From positions 303,730-367,729 of the forward strand of contig NW_017567009.1 of the NCBI RefSeq assembly GCF_001661265.1: a DNA stretch of 64,000 bases. Reading direction: 5' to 3'. Source of the DNA: Saitoella complicata NRRL Y-17804. Lineage: Eukaryota > Ascomycota > Saitoellomycetes > Saitoellales > Saitoellaceae. Below, piece after piece: positions 4,774-64,000 of this stretch; position 1 is the stretch's first letter; every line of letters begins with the position of its first letter. The notes below the pieces were generated by a model. It was not told the DNA's origin. It searched no databases and saw only the letters and a list, made by a program, of their open reading frames with translations. The position numbers and the translations under genes were made by a program.

Positions 4774-7593
4774 ATGCCTTTCCTCAAGCTTAACAACAAG
4801 CTCCGCACCCCGTCCTCTCCCACGGACAGGAGGAAGAGCGCACCGATCATCGTCCTCTCTCCCCCACCGAAGGAGGACGTCAAGGATGGTAGCTACGTGT
4901 ACGCGTTCGAGACCGAGACCGAAGGCGCCGGCAACGAGGAGGACGTGAAGAAAATGAGACGCCACACCTCACCTCCGACTAGCCCGACCCAGGCACCGGC
5001 TTTGGAAGAAGACATGTTCTCCAACAGCGTTAGTGTCGTCAACACCCCCACCGAGGAGGTGGACATGGACATGGACATGGATACGCGTTGGAGCTTCGAG
5101 GCCGGTGATGAGCGGTCTGCGACATGCACCCCCAAACCCGCTCCCGTGTCGCCGGCTATGTCATCCCCTACCAGCCCTGGTCGAGCCCTCCTCGGTAGGG
5201 CACAAGGACAAGAGGAGAAACCGCCGGTCCCACCGAAGAAGGATTGGGATTCTGGGTATGTCCCCACGCGTGTTAACACTCCCAGATCCATCGACTCAAA
5301 TTCCCCCACCCCCAGGGCTACACCGAAGCCTGAAGACCATGGTGCGAGGCCAGGGCAGCATTCGAGGTCTGTGTCGGATGTCTCTGTAGCGTCTGACTCC
5401 TCTATGCTCCCCGGTGAGAGTGAGGAGAGGGGATCTCTTGGTCTCGCCGCCCTAGCCAGCCCGAGGGTGCAGAGAGAGACTGAAGGGCAACCACCGGTGA
5501 TGAGGAGGCCGCTGGGAAAAGTCATGACTGAGGCGGAGTTTAAGAGGTATTCGGCTGCTATCCTCGCTGAACCATGTTCCTCTGATTCCGAGTCCGAGTC
5601 CGAGTCTGAGTCTGAGGTTGGGTCGGATGTGGAAGATGAGAAGGAGAAGGAGAAGGAGAAGGAGAAGGAGAAGGAGAAGGAGAAGGAGAAGGAGAGGGAG
5701 GCGGAGAAGAAGGTTGAGGAGGAGAGGGAGAGGCGGGCGGCGAGGTTGGCGGTGTACAGGGCGAGCATGGTCAAAACCCTTCCCGGCTCCACCTCCGCCT
5801 CCCATGCACCCTCGAGGCGTCCAAGTCCGGCTCCGGTTGCTATCACCGCACCAACACCCGGGGCCATCGCCTCGAAGCCCAGCCTTGTTACTGTCGCTAC
5901 CACCAAGCGCGGTTCTGTGTTCGTGTCCGAGAGTGATTCCTCCGACTCGGAGGAAGACATCCCGCTCAACGTACTTGCCGCGCATGGGTTCCCGAGACGT
6001 GGTGTTCGTGTGCCGGGGACTAAGACCCTCAAGTTCGCTGCCTCTAACGCTGTCGCCGCCAAGGTGAAGGCGCAGAAGGCGCCGGAATGGTTTGGGGCGG
6101 ACGTCACTCGACGCCGGACTCCCGTTCCCGCGGAGGCAAAGGCTGGTCAGGGCAAGGATGGTGATGGGAAGGATACGAGCCCGGCGAGTTCCTACTCTAA
6201 GATTGGGATCAAGACGGGGGGGTGGGTTAACCGACAGAGCATGGATCTCGACTCGAATGTCGGAATTGCTGCCTACGGTGCCTCCTCCAAGCGTGCATCC
6301 GTCGCTAAGACCGTGGAGGTGAGGGAAATGAGGGGGCCCAAGGAGGAGGAGAAGGAGGAAGACGAAATCGACCGCATGGTCCGCCGTGAACGGGAACGCC
6401 GCGACAAAATCGAAGCCATGCACGCTATCCCTCCCGCCAGCCTCGCCGGACTTAGCGTTCCCCCCTTCGCTCCCCCGCTTTCTCTCGCTCCTCGTATAGG
6501 CAGACCGGGGAGTGTCGCCAGTTTCGGGTCTAACCGCGCTGTGTTTGGAGGTGTCGCTGGTCGCCTCGGGCTGCATTGGCAGAGTGGGTTAAGGCAGAGC
6601 TTTGTCCCGGGCGTTGGAGCACCCCAGGGGCAGGTTGAGTATCAGCAGATGATGGTGCCGGTGCCAGTCGGGCAGGCAGCGATGATGGGAATGGGGCTGC
6701 CGCAGATGCCTATGCAAATGCCCATGCAGATGCAGATGGGGATGATGGGTATGCACATGGGGATGCCTATGTCGCCGATGGGGATGATGGCGCCGGGGTA
6801 TGGAGGATATGGAGGCTATGGTGCCCCGCCGCAGATGATGATGAGAAGTCCAGCTGAGGTGCACGGCATCAAAACGCCGAAGGCCGCCGGTGCGGCGACC
6901 CCAACTAGACCGACTATGCAGGCCAATGGATCTTCTACCTCGCTCCCTCACCGCAAAAGCGTTGTACCCGCGCCTAGGCCCGGGTCCAGGGTTGGGAGTG
7001 TTTACGGCGCCAGTGGAATCGGTGCCGGGAGTCAGAGTTCGTTGAACCTCGCAGTCCCTGGCCAGGGACAAGCCCAGCAGAGGAGATCCTACGCACCCAG
7101 CGTCGCCGGATCAGTCTCGAGCGTCCGTACTGGTGCTGGGGCGAGGCGGGTTAGTGCTATCCCGGTGGGTGGGCTGTACACCATCGATGCAAATGGGCGT
7201 GCGTCGCAGACGTTGCTCGTTCCCTCTGCTGCCGCGGCTGGGTCGAGGTCTCCGTCGAGGGTTAGTATGGCTCCGTCTGGTGCTGGTGATGGCATGAACA
7301 AGCCTGCGCCGTTTTATGCGATCGCTGGGGACGTGAAGAAGGATGGTACTTCCACTCCCATCCCTGGTCGCTACAGGCGTGCGAATCGTGCATCACCCAA
7401 CACCACCCCCGCGCCCGAGCCCAAAACTCCAGAGCAGATTGCTGCAGAGGAGGAAGAGGAGAGGAAGGGGTGGGAGGCGTTGATCAAGTTACGCGAGGAC
7501 AGGAAAAAGAAGGTTTTGGAAAAGCAGCGGGAGGAGCAGGAAGTGGAGGCTGCGAAGATTGAGAGCACGAAGGAGCTTAGTGTTGGTGCTTGA
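4774..7593 (+). CDS. Large intrinsically disordered protein, unknown function
   Basis: Single coding exon of 939 codons starting MPFLKLNNKLRTPS. No folded domain is recognisable. The order is: a Ser/Pro-rich region with many SP/TP sites; an acidic Ser-Glu stretch followed by an uninterrupted Lys-Glu dipeptide run near residues 285-310; two further acidic/basic blocks (DSSDSEED and a charged run near 525); a Met-rich segment (PMQMPMQMQMGMMGM) with GYGGYG repeats near residues 650-690; and a C-terminal charged helix (about 890-930) rich in Glu, Lys and Arg. The repeats are encoded by slippage-prone DNA. The composition suggests a phosphoregulated scaffold or cytoskeleton-associated protein, but that is inference. 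Confidence 0.75.
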   Translation: MPFLKLNNKLRTPSSPTDRRKSAPIIVLSPPPKEDVKDGSYVYAFETETEGAGNEEDVKKMRRHTSPPTSPTQAPALEEDMFSNSVSVVNTPTEEVDMDMDMDTRWSFEAGDERSATCTPKPAPVSPAMSSPTSPGRALLGRAQGQEEKPPVPPKKDWDSGYVPTRVNTPRSIDSNSPTPRATPKPEDHGARPGQHSRSVSDVSVASDSSMLPGESEERGSLGLAALASPRVQRETEGQPPVMRRPLGKVMTEAEFKRYSAAILAEPCSSDSESESESESEVGSDVEDEKEKEKEKEKEKEKEKEKEREAEKKVEEERERRAARLAVYRASMVKTLPGSTSASHAPSRRPSPAPVAITAPTPGAIASKPSLVTVATTKRGSVFVSESDSSDSEEDIPLNVLAAHGFPRRGVRVPGTKTLKFAASNAVAAKVKAQKAPEWFGADVTRRRTPVPAEAKAGQGKDGDGKDTSPASSYSKIGIKTGGWVNRQSMDLDSNVGIAAYGASSKRASVAKTVEVREMRGPKEEEKEEDEIDRMVRRERERRDKIEAMHAIPPASLAGLSVPPFAPPLSLAPRIGRPGSVASFGSNRAVFGGVAGRLGLHWQSGLRQSFVPGVGAPQGQVEYQQMMVPVPVGQAAMMGMGLPQMPMQMPMQMQMGMMGMHMGMPMSPMGMMAPGYGGYGGYGAPPQMMMRSPAEVHGIKTPKAAGAATPTRPTMQANGSSTSLPHRKSVVPAPRPGSRVGSVYGASGIGAGSQSSLNLAVPGQGQAQQRRSYAPSVAGSVSSVRTGAGARRVSAIPVGGLYTIDANGRASQTLLVPSAAAAGSRSPSRVSMAPSGAGDGMNKPAPFYAIAGDVKKDGTSTPIPGRYRRANRASPNTTPAPEPKTPEQIAAEEEEERKGWEALIKLREDRKKKVLEKQREEQEVEAAKIESTKELSVGA
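5638..5694 (+). repeat. (GAGAAG)n hexanucleotide microsatellite inside a coding region
   Basis: Nine or so near-perfect GAGAAG units encode a Lys-Glu run in the disordered protein. A second short run of GAGTCC/GAGTCT units (about 5590-5613), encoding Ser-Glu repeats, lies just upstream. Because the unit is a multiple of three, length change keeps the frame. Confidence 0.9.
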
Positions 7594-17200: not shown

Positions 17201-17214
17201 TACCCTAACCCTAA
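17201..17214 (+). repeat. Interstitial telomere-type repeat (CCCTAA orientation)
   Basis: TACCCTAACCCTAA, two full CCCTAA units plus a partial one. The C-rich strand reads rightward, as at the left end of a chromosome, so the tract points outward from the pseudogene that begins at its last base. Confidence 0.75.
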
Positions 17215-17861
17215 TGTTCTCGGTTTTGTTCTTGAATGCGTGGGTTGTGGATTGACCGTCGATGGTGAGCGAGACAAGTTGGAATCCGAGGAGTTTGCAT
17301 GAGTTTTGGAGTACGGGGATTTGGAAACGGAATCTGTGGGCTATGCGAAGGCTTTTCGCAAAGCTTACGTGGCATAGACTGGGTGAAGACGGTGTGGGAA
17401 AGATCGTGGAGTTTGTCATTTGGGGACTCGTCTGGCACTTCGCACTCTAGCCAACCTTCCATCCTCCCTCCTACCGTCTCTTCCTCTTCTTCTCCATCCA
17501 AGGGTTCGGCCTCGTCATCGAAGAATTCTTCGCCGAAGTCTGGCGTATCTTCCTCACGCACCAATCCCAACCTAATCCCCTCAGAAACAATATCTTTTCC
17601 GCCTCCGATTATAGGTGTTTCGAGGAGAGAGCGAGGAAGGTATGGACGGTGGGGTGGTTGTTGTGCACGGGGAGTTTGTGGTGGGCGAATGCTTTGGCTG
17701 AGGCGGGGGTTTGGAATGGGACGGTGAGAATTGGGGGTGTGGATGATTTTGGGCAAGTGGTGGCGTTGTATGGGAGGAACTTCTTTGCTGCGGTGATTGG
17801 ATGGTTGGCGGAGGGACCCAAGGCTCAAGCTGTGCCGGTTCGGCCAATTGCAAGGGTGTGA
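17214..17861 (+). pseudogene. Wax-synthase-like (MBOAT-related) membrane acyltransferase, 5'-truncated pseudogene
   Basis: One reading frame of 216 codons spans the region but is interrupted by TGA at 17253-17255 and TAG at 17448-17450. The translated pieces contain NPRSLHEFW followed by a Trp/Arg-rich segment, matching the SLR(D/E)FW motif of fungal wax-synthase domain proteins. Hydrophobic helices follow (FVIWGLVWHFAL, RLFLFFSIQGFGLVIEEF, TVGWLLCTGSLWWANAL). Full-length relatives have several more N-terminal membrane helices, which are absent here: homology starts exactly where the telomere-type repeat ends. No splice pair convincingly removes both stops. Family call is by motif and hydropathy and is moderately sure; loss of function is likely. 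Confidence 0.6.
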
Positions 17862-50487: not shown

Positions 50488-51479
50488 GTCGAGTTGAAAT
50501 AATCCTCGATAGGCGTCCAAGTATCGTGGTATGCGTCTATGTGGAGATCAGGTGGGTGCTGCTCGTGGTGGCTTTGTCTGTTCGATCTCGGTTGTTAATG
50601 TCGCTGACAGCAGCGGTGACAGCCGTAATCAAAGATCAAGATATTGGTACCCAATAACAATCGACCTGTGCGATGGGGATGTCGCGTTCTCTGTCGATAT
50701 CGTCCAGCTGATCAGCTGGTGACCGTGCAATTTTGATAAATATTCGTCGTGGTAAAATCCAAATTTCGCAACCCCGACTTCGACCTCGCGTCCAATAACG
50801 CCAATCCAAACGCGTATGCCGTCACAAAATGATACTGAACGTCGTCCAATGCGACTCTACCTTCCCTATTGCAATCCTTCCTCGGAACTTGGATTGTTTA
50901 TATATCGCACGGCACGCGCTCAGACCTTGCTTCCCCCACCAGCCACGATGTACGGGGGCGAGTGCGTCACGAGCCACTCAATAGCCACGATCTATTTATA
51001 GCATATCGTCGAAATCCTGGTCGCGACCAGAGAAAGTACATCACCGAACAACCCCTGCAATAACCCATAATGAGACAGAAGGAATGTTATATTTTAGGGA
51101 CATCATGAGGACGCTCTGCTAATGGGGATAGTCAAACTTCTGTAAAATTTACAGCGAACTAGATTATAATCCAGGGCATAATACACCCAGGTCTGACCAA
51201 CCCTTGCAGAACATGGACAGATTATTTTTTCAGCAGGCGGTTAGCGCCCGTTCACGTGAAGCATGCACGGTCCACCGCGCATAGAGCCGCAACTCCACAA
51301 CGCAACGCGTATCGAGGCCAACAACACAATGAATCCAGGCTGGTTTTCGACCGGATTACCGGTCCCTACGACCAATTATCGTGGTCCATACACCGGCACC
51401 CTCACTTTACGTGCAGCGGCTGGGAACCCCTGTTTCCCTACCTCAACCTACGCTCCCGCGCTTGATCAACATACCAAGC
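50488..51479. other. Gene-poor stretch
   Basis: About 1 kb with the promoter of the myristoylated-protein gene at its left. Only short random ORFs. A short Pro/Thr-rich ORF (51302-51535, MNPGWFSTGLPVP...) precedes and overlaps, out of frame, the broken Myb/SANT-like relic and may be its shifted N-terminus. Confidence 0.45.
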
Positions 51480-51927
51480 CCAGGCAGACCAGCCAACCCA
51501 GCCTCGGGACGCACCAAATGGAAGGGCCATTTTGAAAACAAGCTCGTTGAATGCTACATCCGTGACCACGAGGCATACGTCTTTTCGCAACCCAAACATC
51601 AAAAAATGGTTGGGAACCGACTTGGTGGGTATGGGACTTGATGCCCCAAGGTCAAGAACCGTATCCAGCACTTCGCTACACAGTACAAAAAGGCTTATGC
51701 GCATGAAAACATGACCGGTTCAGGTGACACCGAACATCAAACGCTTATTGAACAATGCATCAAGATCTGCCCTTGGTATGATGAATTCAGGGCAATCCTT
51801 GGGAGCCCGACCCAAGGTCATACCTATCAGTGGCATCACTTCGACAGTGTTTACAGTGTTTTCCAACTTCCAGGGTAGTACCATTTTGGCGCAGAAAATG
51901 ACGAAGACGGTGACTCGGGTGAGGGCT
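51480..51927 (+). pseudogene. Relic of a Myb/SANT-like, transposon-associated protein family
   Basis: One frame gives KWKGHFENKLVECYIRDH, YVFSQPKHQKMVGNRLG, then TGA at 51639-51641, then KVKNRIQHFATQYKKAY, ENMTGSGDTE and KICPWYDEFRAILGS, then TAG at 51876-51878. The spaced pattern (helical Trp-containing start, K-x-x-x-R-I-x-x-x-x-x-Y-K, then I-C-P-x-Y-x-x-x-x-x-I-L/M-G) is that of fungal Myb/SANT-like proteins often encoded by or near DNA transposons. The interior stops show decay. The last part runs into the telomere-type repeat. No transposase or terminal inverted repeat is visible. Confidence 0.5.
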
Positions 51928-51947
51928 CTAACCCTAACCCTAACCCT
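51928..51947 (+). repeat. Interstitial telomere-type repeat (CCCTAA orientation)
   Basis: Three perfect TAACCC units (51929-51946) with flanking C and T. The C-rich strand reads rightward, as at a left chromosome end, pointing outward from the UTP23 fragment to its right. Confidence 0.85.
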
Positions 51948-52229: not shown

Positions 52230-52890
52230 ATCAGTCCTCCAATGCGCCAAGGCATTTTTGGCGAGAAGACAAAGGAGCCTCGGTAATGTATACAGAGTTT
52301 GGTGGATGTGGAGAGGAGGAATAAACATCGGTACTGTGTCGCCACGCAATGTTATGAGTTGAGAGGGGAGTTGAGGGGAATACCAAGGGTGCCGTTATTG
52401 TACATCAAATGTTCCCTGTTGATTTTGGAACCTGAGTCAGATGCGACAGCACAGCTTAGGGAGGATTGTAAGAAGTTGGGGCTGTCTGTGCATGAGAAAG
52501 AACCTCTTTCTGGGAAGAAGCGGAAGAGAGAGGGTGAGGAGGATAACGTTGTTGGCGGTGAAGCCTTGGATGAAATTGAACACGAACGGGTAGAAAAGGA
52601 GAAGTGGCGGTTGATGAGGTTGGGACCAAAGGCACCAAACCCTTTAATCTGTGTCAAGAAGATGAAGAAAGGAGACCGGCGCTGGTCCCGGATCACATGA
52701 TGCGAGTGTGAGTGGAACCCAGAAGAAGAGACGAGAGGGAGGTGAGCCCGAGGTGGGGGAGAGTGCGGAGGCACAAGCGGGGGAGAGATCAAATCTGGCA
52801 AGCGTAGGCGAAGAAGAACGGGGAAACAAGAATGGCGAGGATCAGGCGAATGGGAGTGGGGATAACGGGGCAGACGAGTCAGACTTCTAA
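52230..52890 (+). pseudogene. UTP23 pseudogene fragment (rRNA-processing PIN-like protein)
   Basis: The C-terminal half of UTP23, a small-subunit processome factor, is recognisable in pieces: a possible CAKAFLARRQRS segment (about 52240-52280, one frame), then in another frame NKHRYCVATQCYELRGELRG, IPRVPLLYIKCSLLILEP and LGPKAPNPL (52309-52650). The Asp that follows ATQ/ASQ in working proteins is Cys here. After VKKMKK the frame stops, but a one-base shift near 52670 restores a basic/acidic tail (TQKKRREGGEPEVGES...) ending at 52890. The N-terminal PIN half is missing. This must be a non-functional partial copy; a full UTP23 should exist elsewhere. Confidence 0.8.
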
Positions 52891-59590: not shown

Positions 59591-60753
59591 TTATGCAACA
59601 ATCCTCATCTCCCTTTTCCTCTTCGGCGCAAACTTATCCCTATTCTCCTCCCAGAGCCTCTCCAATTCCCTCACGTACGTCGCCTGAATCTTCTTCACCT
59701 CCTCCTCCGTCGGATTCTCATTCTTCTCCACATGAATCGGTCTCCCGACGACGGTGTTGATCGGTCGTCGATACGGCATGAGTCCGAAATCGTAGTTGAA
59801 GACACCACGGGCGTGAAAGAGTGGCATCGTGAATCCCATGAGTTTTTTGAAGGTTTGTTGGAAGCGATAGAGGGCTGTATCGGGGTTGTTCTTGACTTGT
59901 TCGAATAAATCGTTTTCGCCGAAACTGAAGACGGGCACGAGGGATGCGCCGCTCTTAATTGCCAATTTCACAAAACCGAGACGCTTTTTGAGAACGAGAT
60001 CTGCGGTGAAGGGTTGTGCGAGGAGGGATTCTTGGGCGCCGCCGACGACGATACAGATTGATTGGGAGCGATCAAGGAGGTGTTCGCAGCTTCGCTTGGA
60101 GACGGAAGCGAGGGACATGGATTGAAGGTAGTCCCTGTAGAGCGGGGTGCGGAAATTGGAGGAGAGAGTCAAGAGGCTCACGTCGATACCCGGGAACTTC
60201 TCGGACCATCCCGTGGCTTCCGTAGAGAAATTCCCGAAAGCACCAAATGATAGAATCCCATGAGGGTGGTAACCTGTAGGAACTGTTAGTCTCATTGCAC
60301 GCAAAAGTATATGAACTGTACAGCGCCCTACCGAAGATGTACGTCTTCTTGTGTTCCAGGCTCACGGTCTTGTGAAGGTGTAGCGGGAAATACCCAGCAT
60401 ACCACCTCCAGATCTTCAAATTTTTCATCCACTTTCTCGTCCTCAATTTCCCCGTCTCTGGCGCATCATCAAACACAATCCAGACCTGTTACACCTCATG
60501 AGTCCCCATTCACCTCGAAACATTAACGCATAGGGGTACCTACCAAGTATGCGATGATGAGCGGCCACATAGGCGGAACAGCACACAAGAAGAAGAAGAA
60601 ACTGAGGGTCGCCGCGATGGAGCATGAATGCCAAAGCACGGCGAGGGTCTGTAGTCTTCGACGGAAGGGAAGACGGACAGGGGCGAAGTGACGGCCTTCT
60701 GAGAAGCGGCCGCGGTCATGGGATTGTGTTTTTTCGGATTCGTATTTGGACAT
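59591..60753 (-). CDS. DGA1: Diacylglycerol O-acyltransferase 2
   Basis: Makes triacylglycerol from diacylglycerol and acyl-CoA at ER/lipid droplets. Exons 60753-60544, 60485-60332 and 60273-59591 give 348 residues. One or two membrane helices (SIAATLSFFFFLCAVPPMW) precede the catalytic part; the splice at intron 2 forms GYHPHG, the DGAT2 active-site HPHG motif, absent from either exon alone. Further motifs: VVGGAQESL, KRLGFVKLAIKSGASLVPVFSFGENDLF and MPYRRPINTVVGRPI. The family includes MGAT and wax synthases in animals; fungal members are DGATs. Confidence 0.95.
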
Positions 60754-61050: not shown

Positions 61051-62616
61051 TTAGTCCTCATCACTGTCGTCAATCACGATCCTTTTCCGACCGCCGGCAT
61101 TCCCGTTTCCGTTCCCATTCTCATTCGCTCTCTCTCGCCTCGGTGGCGTCGGCAACCTCCTCCTCACCAACCTCCGTCTTCTCCCGTTCGCGCCTTCGCT
61201 TCCAGCGCTGTCGCCATCACTACCACTTTCACGCCGCCTCTTCCGACTATCCTGCGTCGACTCCTCATGTTCCTCCTCCTCCTCCTCCTCCTCCTCCTCC
61301 TCGTCTTCCGAGACGGAGTTGATCAAGACAACACTCACATCCTGCGGATCCCGTCTTAACCTCCGAGGTGCCGGTGGTGCGCCAGTTCGACGGCGAGGAC
61401 GAGGGCCTTGTGTCCAAAACTGCTCTGCATCCTCACTCCCGTCATCGAGAATGTCTTCCCCGGTGTACCCTTGTGATCTTTCGATATCGCTCGTCCCTCT
61501 GCCGTCAAGGAAGGAATCGTCGACGTCGTATTCGTTCGGCTCGTCTGGGTCTAACTCGTCGTGGTCCCCAATTGTATCTCCGTGGTCATAGGGACCGTCA
61601 TCACCACCTCCGTTCCCGGGTGGCCCATGAATAGAGTCATCATCGTCATCTTCATCGTCCTCTTCCTCGGCTTCGTTATCCACCCATCGAGATCGTACAC
61701 GATAACCTCCATTTTCCTCCTCCTCCTCACTCGCGTATGCCGAGGCAGGCCCGTTGTGCTCGCCTCTTTCCTCCCTAAACTCCTCGGCTTCGTCTTCGTC
61801 CATGCCCACCTCATCGTACATATCTTGTGCGTACCCGTTCCCAGGGACACCGTCCTCCTCGAGATCTTCTTCCTCGGGGTCACCGCCGTACTCCCCCAAC
61901 CGATCTGGTCGATATGGGGGTCGACGGACACTCCCGTGTTCGTTCAAGTGCTCATCCTCATCGTCCCAGCCCTCGACATCCTCCACCATCTCATCAACGC
62001 CTTCACTTTCGTCATCCTCATCCTCATCTGTGTACGAGTCTTCCAGACTTTCGTAGCTTTCTGCCTCCGAACCCGATGAAAAAACATACCCACAATGCAG
62101 ACACGACGGGCCACCCTCGACCTCCCACCCACAACTCGCACACCTCATAACCTGGTCCCCTAGATCCATCATCCGTGTCCCCCGGAACTTATTCTTGAAC
62201 AATCCCGGGAAAAGACCTTCCCCACTCGCTCTATGTTCTTCCACCATCACCCTCTGCTCTTTCTGATGCTCCCGCAACGTCCGCCCCTCACCTTCCGGAT
62301 CCTCGACCTCCACCTTCGACACAAATAGATCGACCATATCCCGGATAACAAACGTCAACACAGGTTTATCAACAACCTTCGCCCGACATTGCGGACACGT
62401 CTTCTTATGCTGCAGCCAATCCATCAAGCATCCATAGCATTGAACGTGTCCGCAGGCGAGGGTACACGGTTCATATAGAAGTTCTGTGCAGACTTCGCAG
62501 GTGAGGGATTGACGGAGTCTGGTGAGGTGGGAGGCGAGGGCTGCGAGATGGTCCGTTTTCGAGGAGACTTCGCGCCGGAGGAAGGTGGTCGGGGATTGAG
62601 GTGCCGCGGACGTCAT
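61051..62616 (-). CDS. RING-finger protein with a long acidic region
   Basis: Intronless, 521 residues from MTSAAPQ at 62616; a further upstream in-frame ATG exists but adds unrelated sequence. A canonical C3HC4 RING sits near residues 42-80 (CEVCTELLYEPCTLACGHVQC, then CLMDW and CPQCR), preceded by a helix (DHLAALASHLTRLRQSLT). A second Cys cluster follows (CASCGWEVEGG, CLHCGYVF) near residues 160-185, zinc-ribbon-like. Residues about 190-460 are extremely Asp/Glu-rich, and the end is Arg-rich with RKR and DDSDED. Probable ubiquitin ligase, possibly chromatin- or histone-associated given the acidic domain; that link is inference. Confidence 0.85.
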   Translation of the reverse strand: MTSAAPQSPTTFLRREVSSKTDHLAALASHLTRLRQSLTCEVCTELLYEPCTLACGHVQCYGCLMDWLQHKKTCPQCRAKVVDKPVLTFVIRDMVDLFVSKVEVEDPEGEGRTLREHQKEQRVMVEEHRASGEGLFPGLFKNKFRGTRMMDLGDQVMRCASCGWEVEGGPSCLHCGYVFSSGSEAESYESLEDSYTDEDEDDESEGVDEMVEDVEGWDDEDEHLNEHGSVRRPPYRPDRLGEYGGDPEEEDLEEDGVPGNGYAQDMYDEVGMDEDEAEEFREERGEHNGPASAYASEEEEENGGYRVRSRWVDNEAEEEDDEDDDDDSIHGPPGNGGGDDGPYDHGDTIGDHDELDPDEPNEYDVDDSFLDGRGTSDIERSQGYTGEDILDDGSEDAEQFWTQGPRPRRRTGAPPAPRRLRRDPQDVSVVLINSVSEDEEEEEEEEEEEHEESTQDSRKRRRESGSDGDSAGSEGANGRRRRLVRRRLPTPPRRERANENGNGNGNAGGRKRIVIDDSDED

Positions 62617-63028
62617 TTTGACGAAGGAGTATAACTGGTAGGTTCGCAGACTAGGCGTACAGGGCGGAGAAACGTCGACCAGGGAGGATGGATGTAAGTC
62701 AGCGGATAAAGAAGGAAGCAGACGTCGCCGTTTGAGGACAGTGACAAAAAGGGACACCACCGATTTGTTATCGACAATTGAGTCGGCAGTCAGTCTTTGG
62801 GTGGTGAATGCCTGGTACGTACGCGGAACCCACCGCCGGTGTTCTGCAGCTGGGTGCAGCCGCGCCGAAACGGGCGTATCGAAATCCGCGACACGACACG
62901 GCCAGGCCCTCAACTGCAACAAAACAAAAATGTCGTATTTAGATACTGAAAATCGGTACGGCTGTTTGTTTTGTTATCTTCAACTGATTTCGAAATTCCT
63001 GGTACGGCTTCCTGCCCGGTCTTGCCGG
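62617..63028. other. Intergenic region, RING gene promoter
   Basis: About 0.4 kb with the promoter of the leftward RING gene and the region before the orphan ORF. The orphan frame is open upstream of its first ATG to about 62967. Confidence 0.45.
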
Positions 63029-63485
63029 TCATGGGGCCCACCAGGGAACCCCCTATTCGCCCACAAACCTCAGACCTTACGGAACTTCCGTCCAGTCTCT
63101 CTCTTGACTTACCTCGTCCCTCTACGCCTCCACAGTTCATTAGAAGGACCACTATTCCCCTCTCGCTCGTCTTGGACCCTTCCCCTGATGACGTCAACCA
63201 CCCTCCTGCTGCCTCTACCAGTACTCAGGAGGATATGGAGCCGTTTACGGCCTCCCCCCTCGTGAAGTACTCATACGAAGTTTCAATACCTCTCAACGTT
63301 TCTCTCGTTATGATTCGGCGTGCTCTTGATGCCGCTGGGATAGCATTCACCTCCGCACAGATGGAATATCGGCACATCCTGTCTGGTAGACTACGGGTAG
63401 CTCTTAAAAAGAAGCCCGCTTTCTATTATGAGAAGGACGCTGTCTTTCACCCCTTCGTTCTTCGCTCTCGCTCACGTCCTTCTTA
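63029..63485 (+). CDS. Orphan ORF ending in a telomere-type repeat (probably 3'-truncated)
   Basis: From ATG at 63029 the frame runs 151 codons: a Pro/Thr/Ser-rich start (RPSTPPQF, DPSPDDVNHPP), then a more structured part (VKYSYEVSIPLNVSLVMIRRALDAAGIAF, shown here only as an outline) ending KKKPAFYYEKDAVFHPF. The stop codon TAG at 63483-63485 uses bases of the first telomere repeat unit, so the reading frame probably ended elsewhere before the repeat was placed there. I recognise no family. It could be a cut gene or a subtelomeric family member. Confidence 0.35.
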
Positions 63486-63500
63486 GGGTTAGGGTTAGGG
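63483..63500 (+). repeat. Interstitial telomere-type repeat (TTAGGG orientation)
   Basis: Three perfect TTAGGG units. The G-rich strand reads rightward, as at a right chromosome end, pointing outward from the orphan ORF. The base after the last unit belongs to 18S rRNA sequence. Confidence 0.85.
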
Positions 63501-63600
63501 TGAGCCATTCGCAGTTTCACTGTATAAATTGCTTATACTTAGACATGCATGGCTTAATCTTTGAGACAAGCATATGACTACTGGCAGGATCAACCAGGTA
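63501..63600 (-). rRNA. 18S rRNA, first 100 nt only (truncated)
   Basis: The minus strand starts TACCTGGTTGATCCTGCCAG at 63600, the universal eukaryotic 18S 5' end, and runs without mismatch that I can see through AAGCCATGCATGTCTAAG and TGCGAATGGCTCA at 63501. Normal 18S continues ATTAAATCAG; here it switches to CCCTAA repeats. The rest of 18S is absent from the window. Confidence 0.95.
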
Positions 63601-64000
63601 ACTATCATGGTTCCCTCATCCAGAAGGCCTTTCGGCGCTCCCTGACTTGGGAAGTCCACATTCTTACTCTGCCCTGGGGCTTTTCGGAACGGAAGTTTTC
63701 CTATTGGTTGTTTGGACGGACGACCATTGCTGGAAGTCCACCGTTAAGATCCACCGAGGTGCGTGGCAGAGCTCAGGAATCCAACGGTTTCCAATTGCCG
63801 GCATTGAGATTTTCTTAGGTGGCATCAACAGCAAGAACAGCCGGACCGCAGTCCGAAAGCCTTGCGCTTCAGCACCATAGAAGGAGGCTGCCCTTATGAG
63901 AGACTCACATCGACGAATCGACGGATCGTTTCCCGGACTTACCCCCGAGTGTTTAAGCAGAACGATAGCCATAGGCAATCAATCCACCGAGTTAAACAGT
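63601..64000 (-). other. 5' external transcribed spacer of the rDNA unit
   Basis: The 400 nt directly upstream of the 18S 5' end on the minus strand must be 5' ETS by position. It runs off the right edge, so rDNA continues beyond the window. No coding content is expected here. Confidence 0.75.

Follow-up and report, generated by a model that had tools for sequence, protein, structure and literature searches.

In mammalian genomes, short interstitial telomeric tracts that carry marks of end joining are described in passages of PMC7215372 as the scars of joined breaks. In the fungus Pyricularia oryzae, telomere motifs are internalised after deprotection according to the relevant passages of PMC8381367. 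Table 1 of that article lists 73–265 bi-repeats and 2–21 tri-repeats or longer for eight P. oryzae assemblies of 39.7–45.3 Mb, and its section 25 gives the telomeres of this species as ca. 20–30 repeats. Here, we describe a junction in a 64-kb window (the whole stretch of DNA that was analysed, 64,000 nucleotides) at which three TTAGGG units run without spacer into an inverted 18S rRNA gene, with one nucleotide shared between the two.

The window is gene-rich and fungus-like, with P450/CYP51, DGAT, RING, kinesin and lipase proteins. A structure database search gave sterol 14-alpha demethylases as the best solved relatives of its P450, and we take the top ones to be fungal. Elsewhere in the window, a GAGAAG hexamer array of 15.7 copies (5638–5731) lies inside a 997-codon frame and is read as a Lys-Glu repeat. 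The region around the junction holds the following features:

61051–62619, minus strand: gene for a RING-finger protein, ORF from an assumed ATG (Pfam zf-C3HC4_2, E = 6.1e-9, and related RING models), the ordinary gene closest to the junction
62971–63486, plus strand: open frame of 171 codons, doubtful as a gene, with its stop (TAG) inside the first TTAGGG unit
63483–63501, plus strand: telomeric tract, (TTAGGG)3 with one further nucleotide common to the rDNA (motif search and maximal-run count)
63501–63600, minus strand: 18S rRNA gene, nt 1–100 only (Rfam RF01960, E = 6.9e-12, and alignment to two 18S-bearing records)
63601–64000, minus strand: probable 5′ external transcribed spacer (5′ ETS), leaving the window at its edge (adjoins the 18S 5′ end and shares 6 nt with NZ_CP082873.1)

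On the plus strand, positions 63483–63500 read TTAGGGTTAGGGTTAGGG, and the perfect telomeric run TTAGGGTTAGGGTTAGGGT covers 19 nt at 63483–63501. The T at 63501 is common to the next telomere unit and the rDNA, i.e., there is a 1-nt overlap at the joint. Read on the minus strand, the 18S part starts with TACCTGGTTGATCCTGCCAG. A 106-nt blastn match (63501–63606, 98.1%) to the plasmid-collection record NZ_CP082873.1 starts exactly at 63501. In alignment, the two 18S-bearing records carry TTTAATGAGCC where the window carries TTAGGGTGAGCC, which places the 18S break after nt 99 or 100. Rfam scores the fragment as SSU_rRNA_eukarya with 49.3 bits (E = 6.9e-12) against a gathering score of 50; because it falls just below that score, the gathering-score search of the window returned zero rRNA matches, and the E-value search caught it. 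The Rfam match spans 63342–63597, with clean alignment only over 63501–63597 and the remainder gapped. One of ten rRNA probe words is present in the window (the 18S 5′ word, with one occurrence), and the nine words for other parts of the rDNA unit are absent from the 64 kb. Under an order-1 Markov model, 4.5e-6 telomeric tracts of at least 18 nt are expected in 64 kb, and 1e-6 for a 19-nt run. With ca. 4e-6 expected tracts of at least 18 nt and an Rfam E-value of ca. 7e-12, a chance origin of the junction parts is rejected. An earlier note on this DNA had reported three TTAGGG units directly abutting a minus-strand 18S gene that breaks off after its first 100 nt; sequence, Rfam and alignment bear this out, and the presence of the telomere/18S junction in the sequence is confirmed. 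As RNA, the minus strand of 63495–64000 folds with a z-score of −1.75, and 6 of 100 shuffles were equally good, which makes the fold uninformative.

The same note had let the 5′ ETS run from the 18S gene to the window edge. Its position beside the gene favours this, as do the 6 nt directly next to the 18S gene (rRNA strand, GATAGT), which are the same in NZ_CP082873.1. Past those 6 nt, the alignment with this record shows no convincing similarity, and we regard 63601–64000 as probable 5′ ETS. A blastn comparison of 63600–64000 with E. coli gave no matches, and a DNA similarity search with 62600–64000 found two records among plasmids, both rRNA sequence, and none among phages. By Rfam, NZ_CP082873.1 (Campylobacter hominis) and NZ_CP050525.1 (Acinetobacter baumannii), both filed as plasmids, hold eukaryotic rRNA sequence, the former the 18S 5′ part and a 5S gene and the latter an 18S match along its whole length. 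Both look like eukaryotic contamination, and NZ_CP082873.1 is judged to be yeast-like rDNA.

Telomerase adds TTAGGG to 3′ ends. Since the plus strand reads TTAGGG before the rDNA begins, the repeats are part of the DNA on the left and are oriented as they would be at a right-hand chromosome end for it, just as the earlier note had stated. Polarity rules out a simple healed rDNA end, for which the plus strand would carry CCCTAA at this place; in a healed end of the M. oryzae TEL1 type the repeats lead outward from the rDNA, whereas here they lead into it. Nor does the tract have the form of a canonical telomere: after three units, other sequence takes over for 500 nt. It consists of at least two telomeric units beyond chance and, if the assembly is right, has non-telomeric DNA on both flanks (gene space on the left, 18S on the right), i.e., it is an interstitial telomeric sequence (ITS). 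At its right border one nucleotide is common with the rDNA, and the C at 63482 to its left is out of register with the repeat, which counts against a telomerase-primed origin.

The window contains two further tracts, both found by maximal-run count:

17202–17214, minus strand: third interstitial telomeric tract, 13 nt
51928–51947, minus strand: second interstitial telomeric tract, 20 nt

Both lie in gene space and read CCCTAA on the plus strand, opposite to the tract at the junction. Altogether, there are ten telomeric runs of at least 8 nt, seven of them of 8 nt, none of 9–11 nt, and then those of 13, 19 and 20 nt. In 15 Markov sequences, the mean number of runs was 6.0 for at least 8 nt (largest 10), 1.1 for at least 9 nt (largest 3) and 0.2 for at least 10 nt, and none reached 11 nt or more. 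Two-unit matches with at most one mismatch number five, compared to 0.19 on average, and all 100 shuffles stayed below this number. Given the gap in run length compared to the simulations, the long tracts resemble discrete insertions rather than motifs that have grown out. A cis-regulatory telomere box is not favoured, with seven 8-nt runs against ca. 4.9 simulated and no runs of 9–11 nt. With three tracts in 64 kb, the window is denser than the P. oryzae assemblies, but it had been picked for such a tract and this density is no genome rate.

The surroundings of these two tracts hold several frames. Right of the tract at 17202, a plus-strand frame (17256–17861) with an in-frame stop at 17448–17450 presumably resembles a wax-synthase-type fragment, judging by its motifs; Pfam searches with its two parts gave no match. 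Decayed-looking plus-strand frames at 51333–51927 have the 51928 tract at their end. We take these frames to resemble transposon-linked Myb/SANT-like proteins, and four pieces of this stretch gave nothing over the Pfam cut-off. To the right of the 51928 tract, at a distance of ca. 340 bp, a frame at 52287–52697 matches the rRNA-processing protein UTP23 from ca. residue 102 (Pfam Fcf1, E = 4.3e-11; PDB 9g25, E = 7e-14). By eye, the N-terminal half was not seen in the upstream frames, and the UTP23-like frame may be truncated or split by introns.

Given two more tracts in the same 64 kb, short telomeric repeats do not necessarily indicate a chromosome end in this stretch. A tract of three units is too short for a telomere and, with two others inside the same gene-bearing DNA, is no evidence of the capped chromosome that the earlier note had listed among its options. 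A variant in which a true chromosome end comprising the RING gene, the open frame and a telomere lost all but three units by erosion before its end-to-end fusion to broken rDNA would agree with the polarity of the tract, which suits a right-hand end. Section 25 of PMC8381367 also describes the interstitial motifs of P. oryzae as mostly subterminal, with a majority oriented as former telomeres. Several features of the locus weigh against such a fusion, and we consider it improbable: comparing the window with itself by blastn revealed no repeated stretch, the last of nine rows from Tandem Repeats Finder ends at 61302 with none telomeric or near the joint, the other two tracts have the opposite orientation, and an ordinary gene extends to ca. 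0.9 kb from the tract. This is the RING gene, whose start (assumed ATG) near 62619 also lies ca. 350 bp from the 171-codon frame.

The 171-codon frame is doubtful as a gene and appears to have little coding signal. It matched no Pfam or NCBIfam family, it has no second copy in the 64 kb, its sole match in a PDB search (E = 0.56) is not meaningful, and a single-sequence AlphaFold2 model reached a mean pLDDT of 45.3. Its codon score from the first ATG is 0.013 compared to 0.086–0.223 for 18 reference ORFs, a comparison biased in favour of the latter because they also trained the score. The codon table also took in a 19th reference ORF, 61051–62620, one base out of frame; it scored −0.454 and is omitted from the quoted range. 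In 90-nt windows within 63160–63339, the frame is the best of six with codon scores up to +0.17; as it is locally best and the reference ORFs trained the score, it may still be a coding remnant. Among viral_contigs, four stretches matched a pattern for the frame and one of them passed (24% identity); it shares PDDVNHPP, otherwise looks unrelated and was rejected as a relative. Because the open frame stops exactly in the first TTAGGG unit, one could imagine a site-specific retroelement with TTAGGG units at its 3′ end that inserted at 18S nt 100, and telomere-linked fungal retroelements do exist (MoTeR in passages of PMC7367193; FoTeR, PMC12857005). We find this barely credible, since neither Pfam nor NCBIfam shows a reverse transcriptase or any other family in the 171-aa frame, and the RING gene begins only ca. 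350 bp away. Nor was a resumption of the 18S gene on the far side seen: the 13-nt word tried for 18S nt 101 onward and the words for later 18S parts are absent from the window, in which Rfam gave no rRNA match at or above its gathering score.

The orientation of the rDNA would also fit a joining templated by RNA, in which a chromosome 3′ end with TTAGGG served as the primer and pre-rRNA was reverse transcribed, beginning at 18S nt 100 and proceeding into the 5′ ETS. The plus strand has the order that such priming would give, i.e., primer followed by the complement of pre-rRNA, and passages of PMC8537989 describe vertebrate telomeric repeats flanked by retrotranscribed telomerase RNA. However, random end joining yields the same orientation half of the time, and pairing between primer and template, counted by hand from the alignment, comes to one T-A and two G-U pairs only. 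This origin is very unlikely in our view. If true, it would mean that a break was sealed with pre-rRNA cDNA, an rRNA counterpart of the vertebrate tracts flanked by telomerase RNA, and the rDNA part would end at or before the start of the pre-rRNA and never include intergenic spacer.

A more serious concern is that the junction is an artefact, in which an abundant rDNA fragment became linked, within a chimeric library molecule or during assembly, to a chromosome end or an interstitial tract. The arrays of the abundant rDNA are commonly left unassembled, as passages of PMC10085805 state for fission yeasts, and the 18S break coincides with no nameable target site. Conversely, none of our tests gave a sign of an artefact: the 64-kb window contains no N, and all Illumina, Nextera, ONT and 454 adaptor words that we tried (12–13 nt) are absent from it. 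SMRTbell-like words occur at 59698, 61270 (beside a TCC array) and 61712–61714, all more than 1.7 kb from the joint. Under usual settings, 19 nt should also not suffice for reads to be overlapped falsely, so that a chimeric molecule would be required. We regard an artefact as the main rival reading, less likely than not but with a substantial chance.

We favour, at slightly better than an even chance, a real break-repair junction in which end joining linked a broken end with a few TTAGGG units to broken rDNA and so produced an array edge or a captured fragment. A double-strand break would have arisen on the right side of the RING gene; the left end would have borne at its 3′ terminus a few TTAGGG units that were either added by telomerase or remained from a shrunken telomere. 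Its partner in the subsequent joining would have been rDNA that had broken after 18S nt 99–100, the two ends sharing no more than 1 nt of microhomology, and the product would exist in the cell as an ITS bordering the rDNA array or a captured rDNA fragment. The observations behind this repair scar are the sequence itself, the polarity, the position of the break, the 1-nt overlap and the two further discrete interstitial tracts. At 19 nt, the junction tract is similar to these other tracts (13 and 20 nt), and the DNA to its left is ordinary gene space (P450/CYP51, DGAT, RING). One nucleotide overlaps at the joint, and a tract of 18–19 nt, being shorter than usual k-mers or read overlaps, should not by itself mislead an assembler. 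Precedents are found in passages of PMC7215372, PMC8381367 and PMC10085805.

Several points weigh against this reading. A 1-nt overlap arises by chance about a quarter of the time, the out-of-register C at 63482 speaks against the repair scar although a telomerase seed could hide inside the tract, and rDNA, as very abundant nuclear DNA, is a likely partner in chimeric library molecules. Moreover, the rDNA side leaves the window 400 nt past the 18S start, so that an array edge and a captured fragment look alike. The options named by the earlier note (fusion, capture, assembly join) form the right list, and its interpretation as a whole is partly supported. Overall, a repair scar is the most likely reading, known in kind but with a partner that is unusual, and the chance of an artefact is substantial.

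Comparable junctions did not emerge in the collections searched. The junction pattern had no match in viral_contigs, where two 18S patterns also had none, and a single match in genome_contigs, on the contig of an archaeal MAG, shows no rRNA in the surrounding 251 bases and was taken as chance. No related eukaryotic locus was found in the sequence collections searched, and the titles and abstract openings of the literature matches listed do not describe the same junction. If real, the junction would mark a place where rDNA was joined to unique DNA with telomeric repeats taking part in the joining. Considered alongside the two other tracts, it would point to an unusually frequent use of telomeric additions in the repair of breaks in this genome. 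No function of its own is evident; if the rDNA were transcribed, Pol I leaving the truncated 18S would cross the tract in the direction of the RING gene. As interstitial tracts of three or more units are reported to be break-prone in P. oryzae (in passages of PMC7367193), the site might be fragile. If the junction is a chimera, it is a warning on chromosome-end claims taken from assemblies.

Interstitial telomeric repeats as break scars are already known in kind, and the unusual part here is the rDNA partner. With the ITSs at double-strand breaks of primates, rodents and horses, as presented in passages of PMC7215372, the locus shares a short, discrete TTAGGG tract with sharp borders inside a chromosome; it differs in having a broken rRNA gene as one of its flanks and a fungus-like host. 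Break-site nucleotides in register with the repeat are described for the mammalian tracts. With P. oryzae, it shares bi- or tri-repeat tracts in a fungal interior, which are ascribed to the repair of deprotected ends, but the passages of PMC8381367 concerned contain no rDNA partner. The rDNA telomere truncations of M. oryzae (TEL1; passages of PMC7367193) likewise place broken rDNA beside TTAGGG repeats, yet new telomeres form there on the truncated rDNA end, whereas the repeats at our junction are part of the non-rDNA side and are directed into the rDNA. In S. osmophilus, finally, passages of PMC10085805 describe junctions at which non-rDNA meets the rDNA unit at various positions; there, a 15.3-kb sequence separates rDNA from telomeric repeats, while here the two touch.
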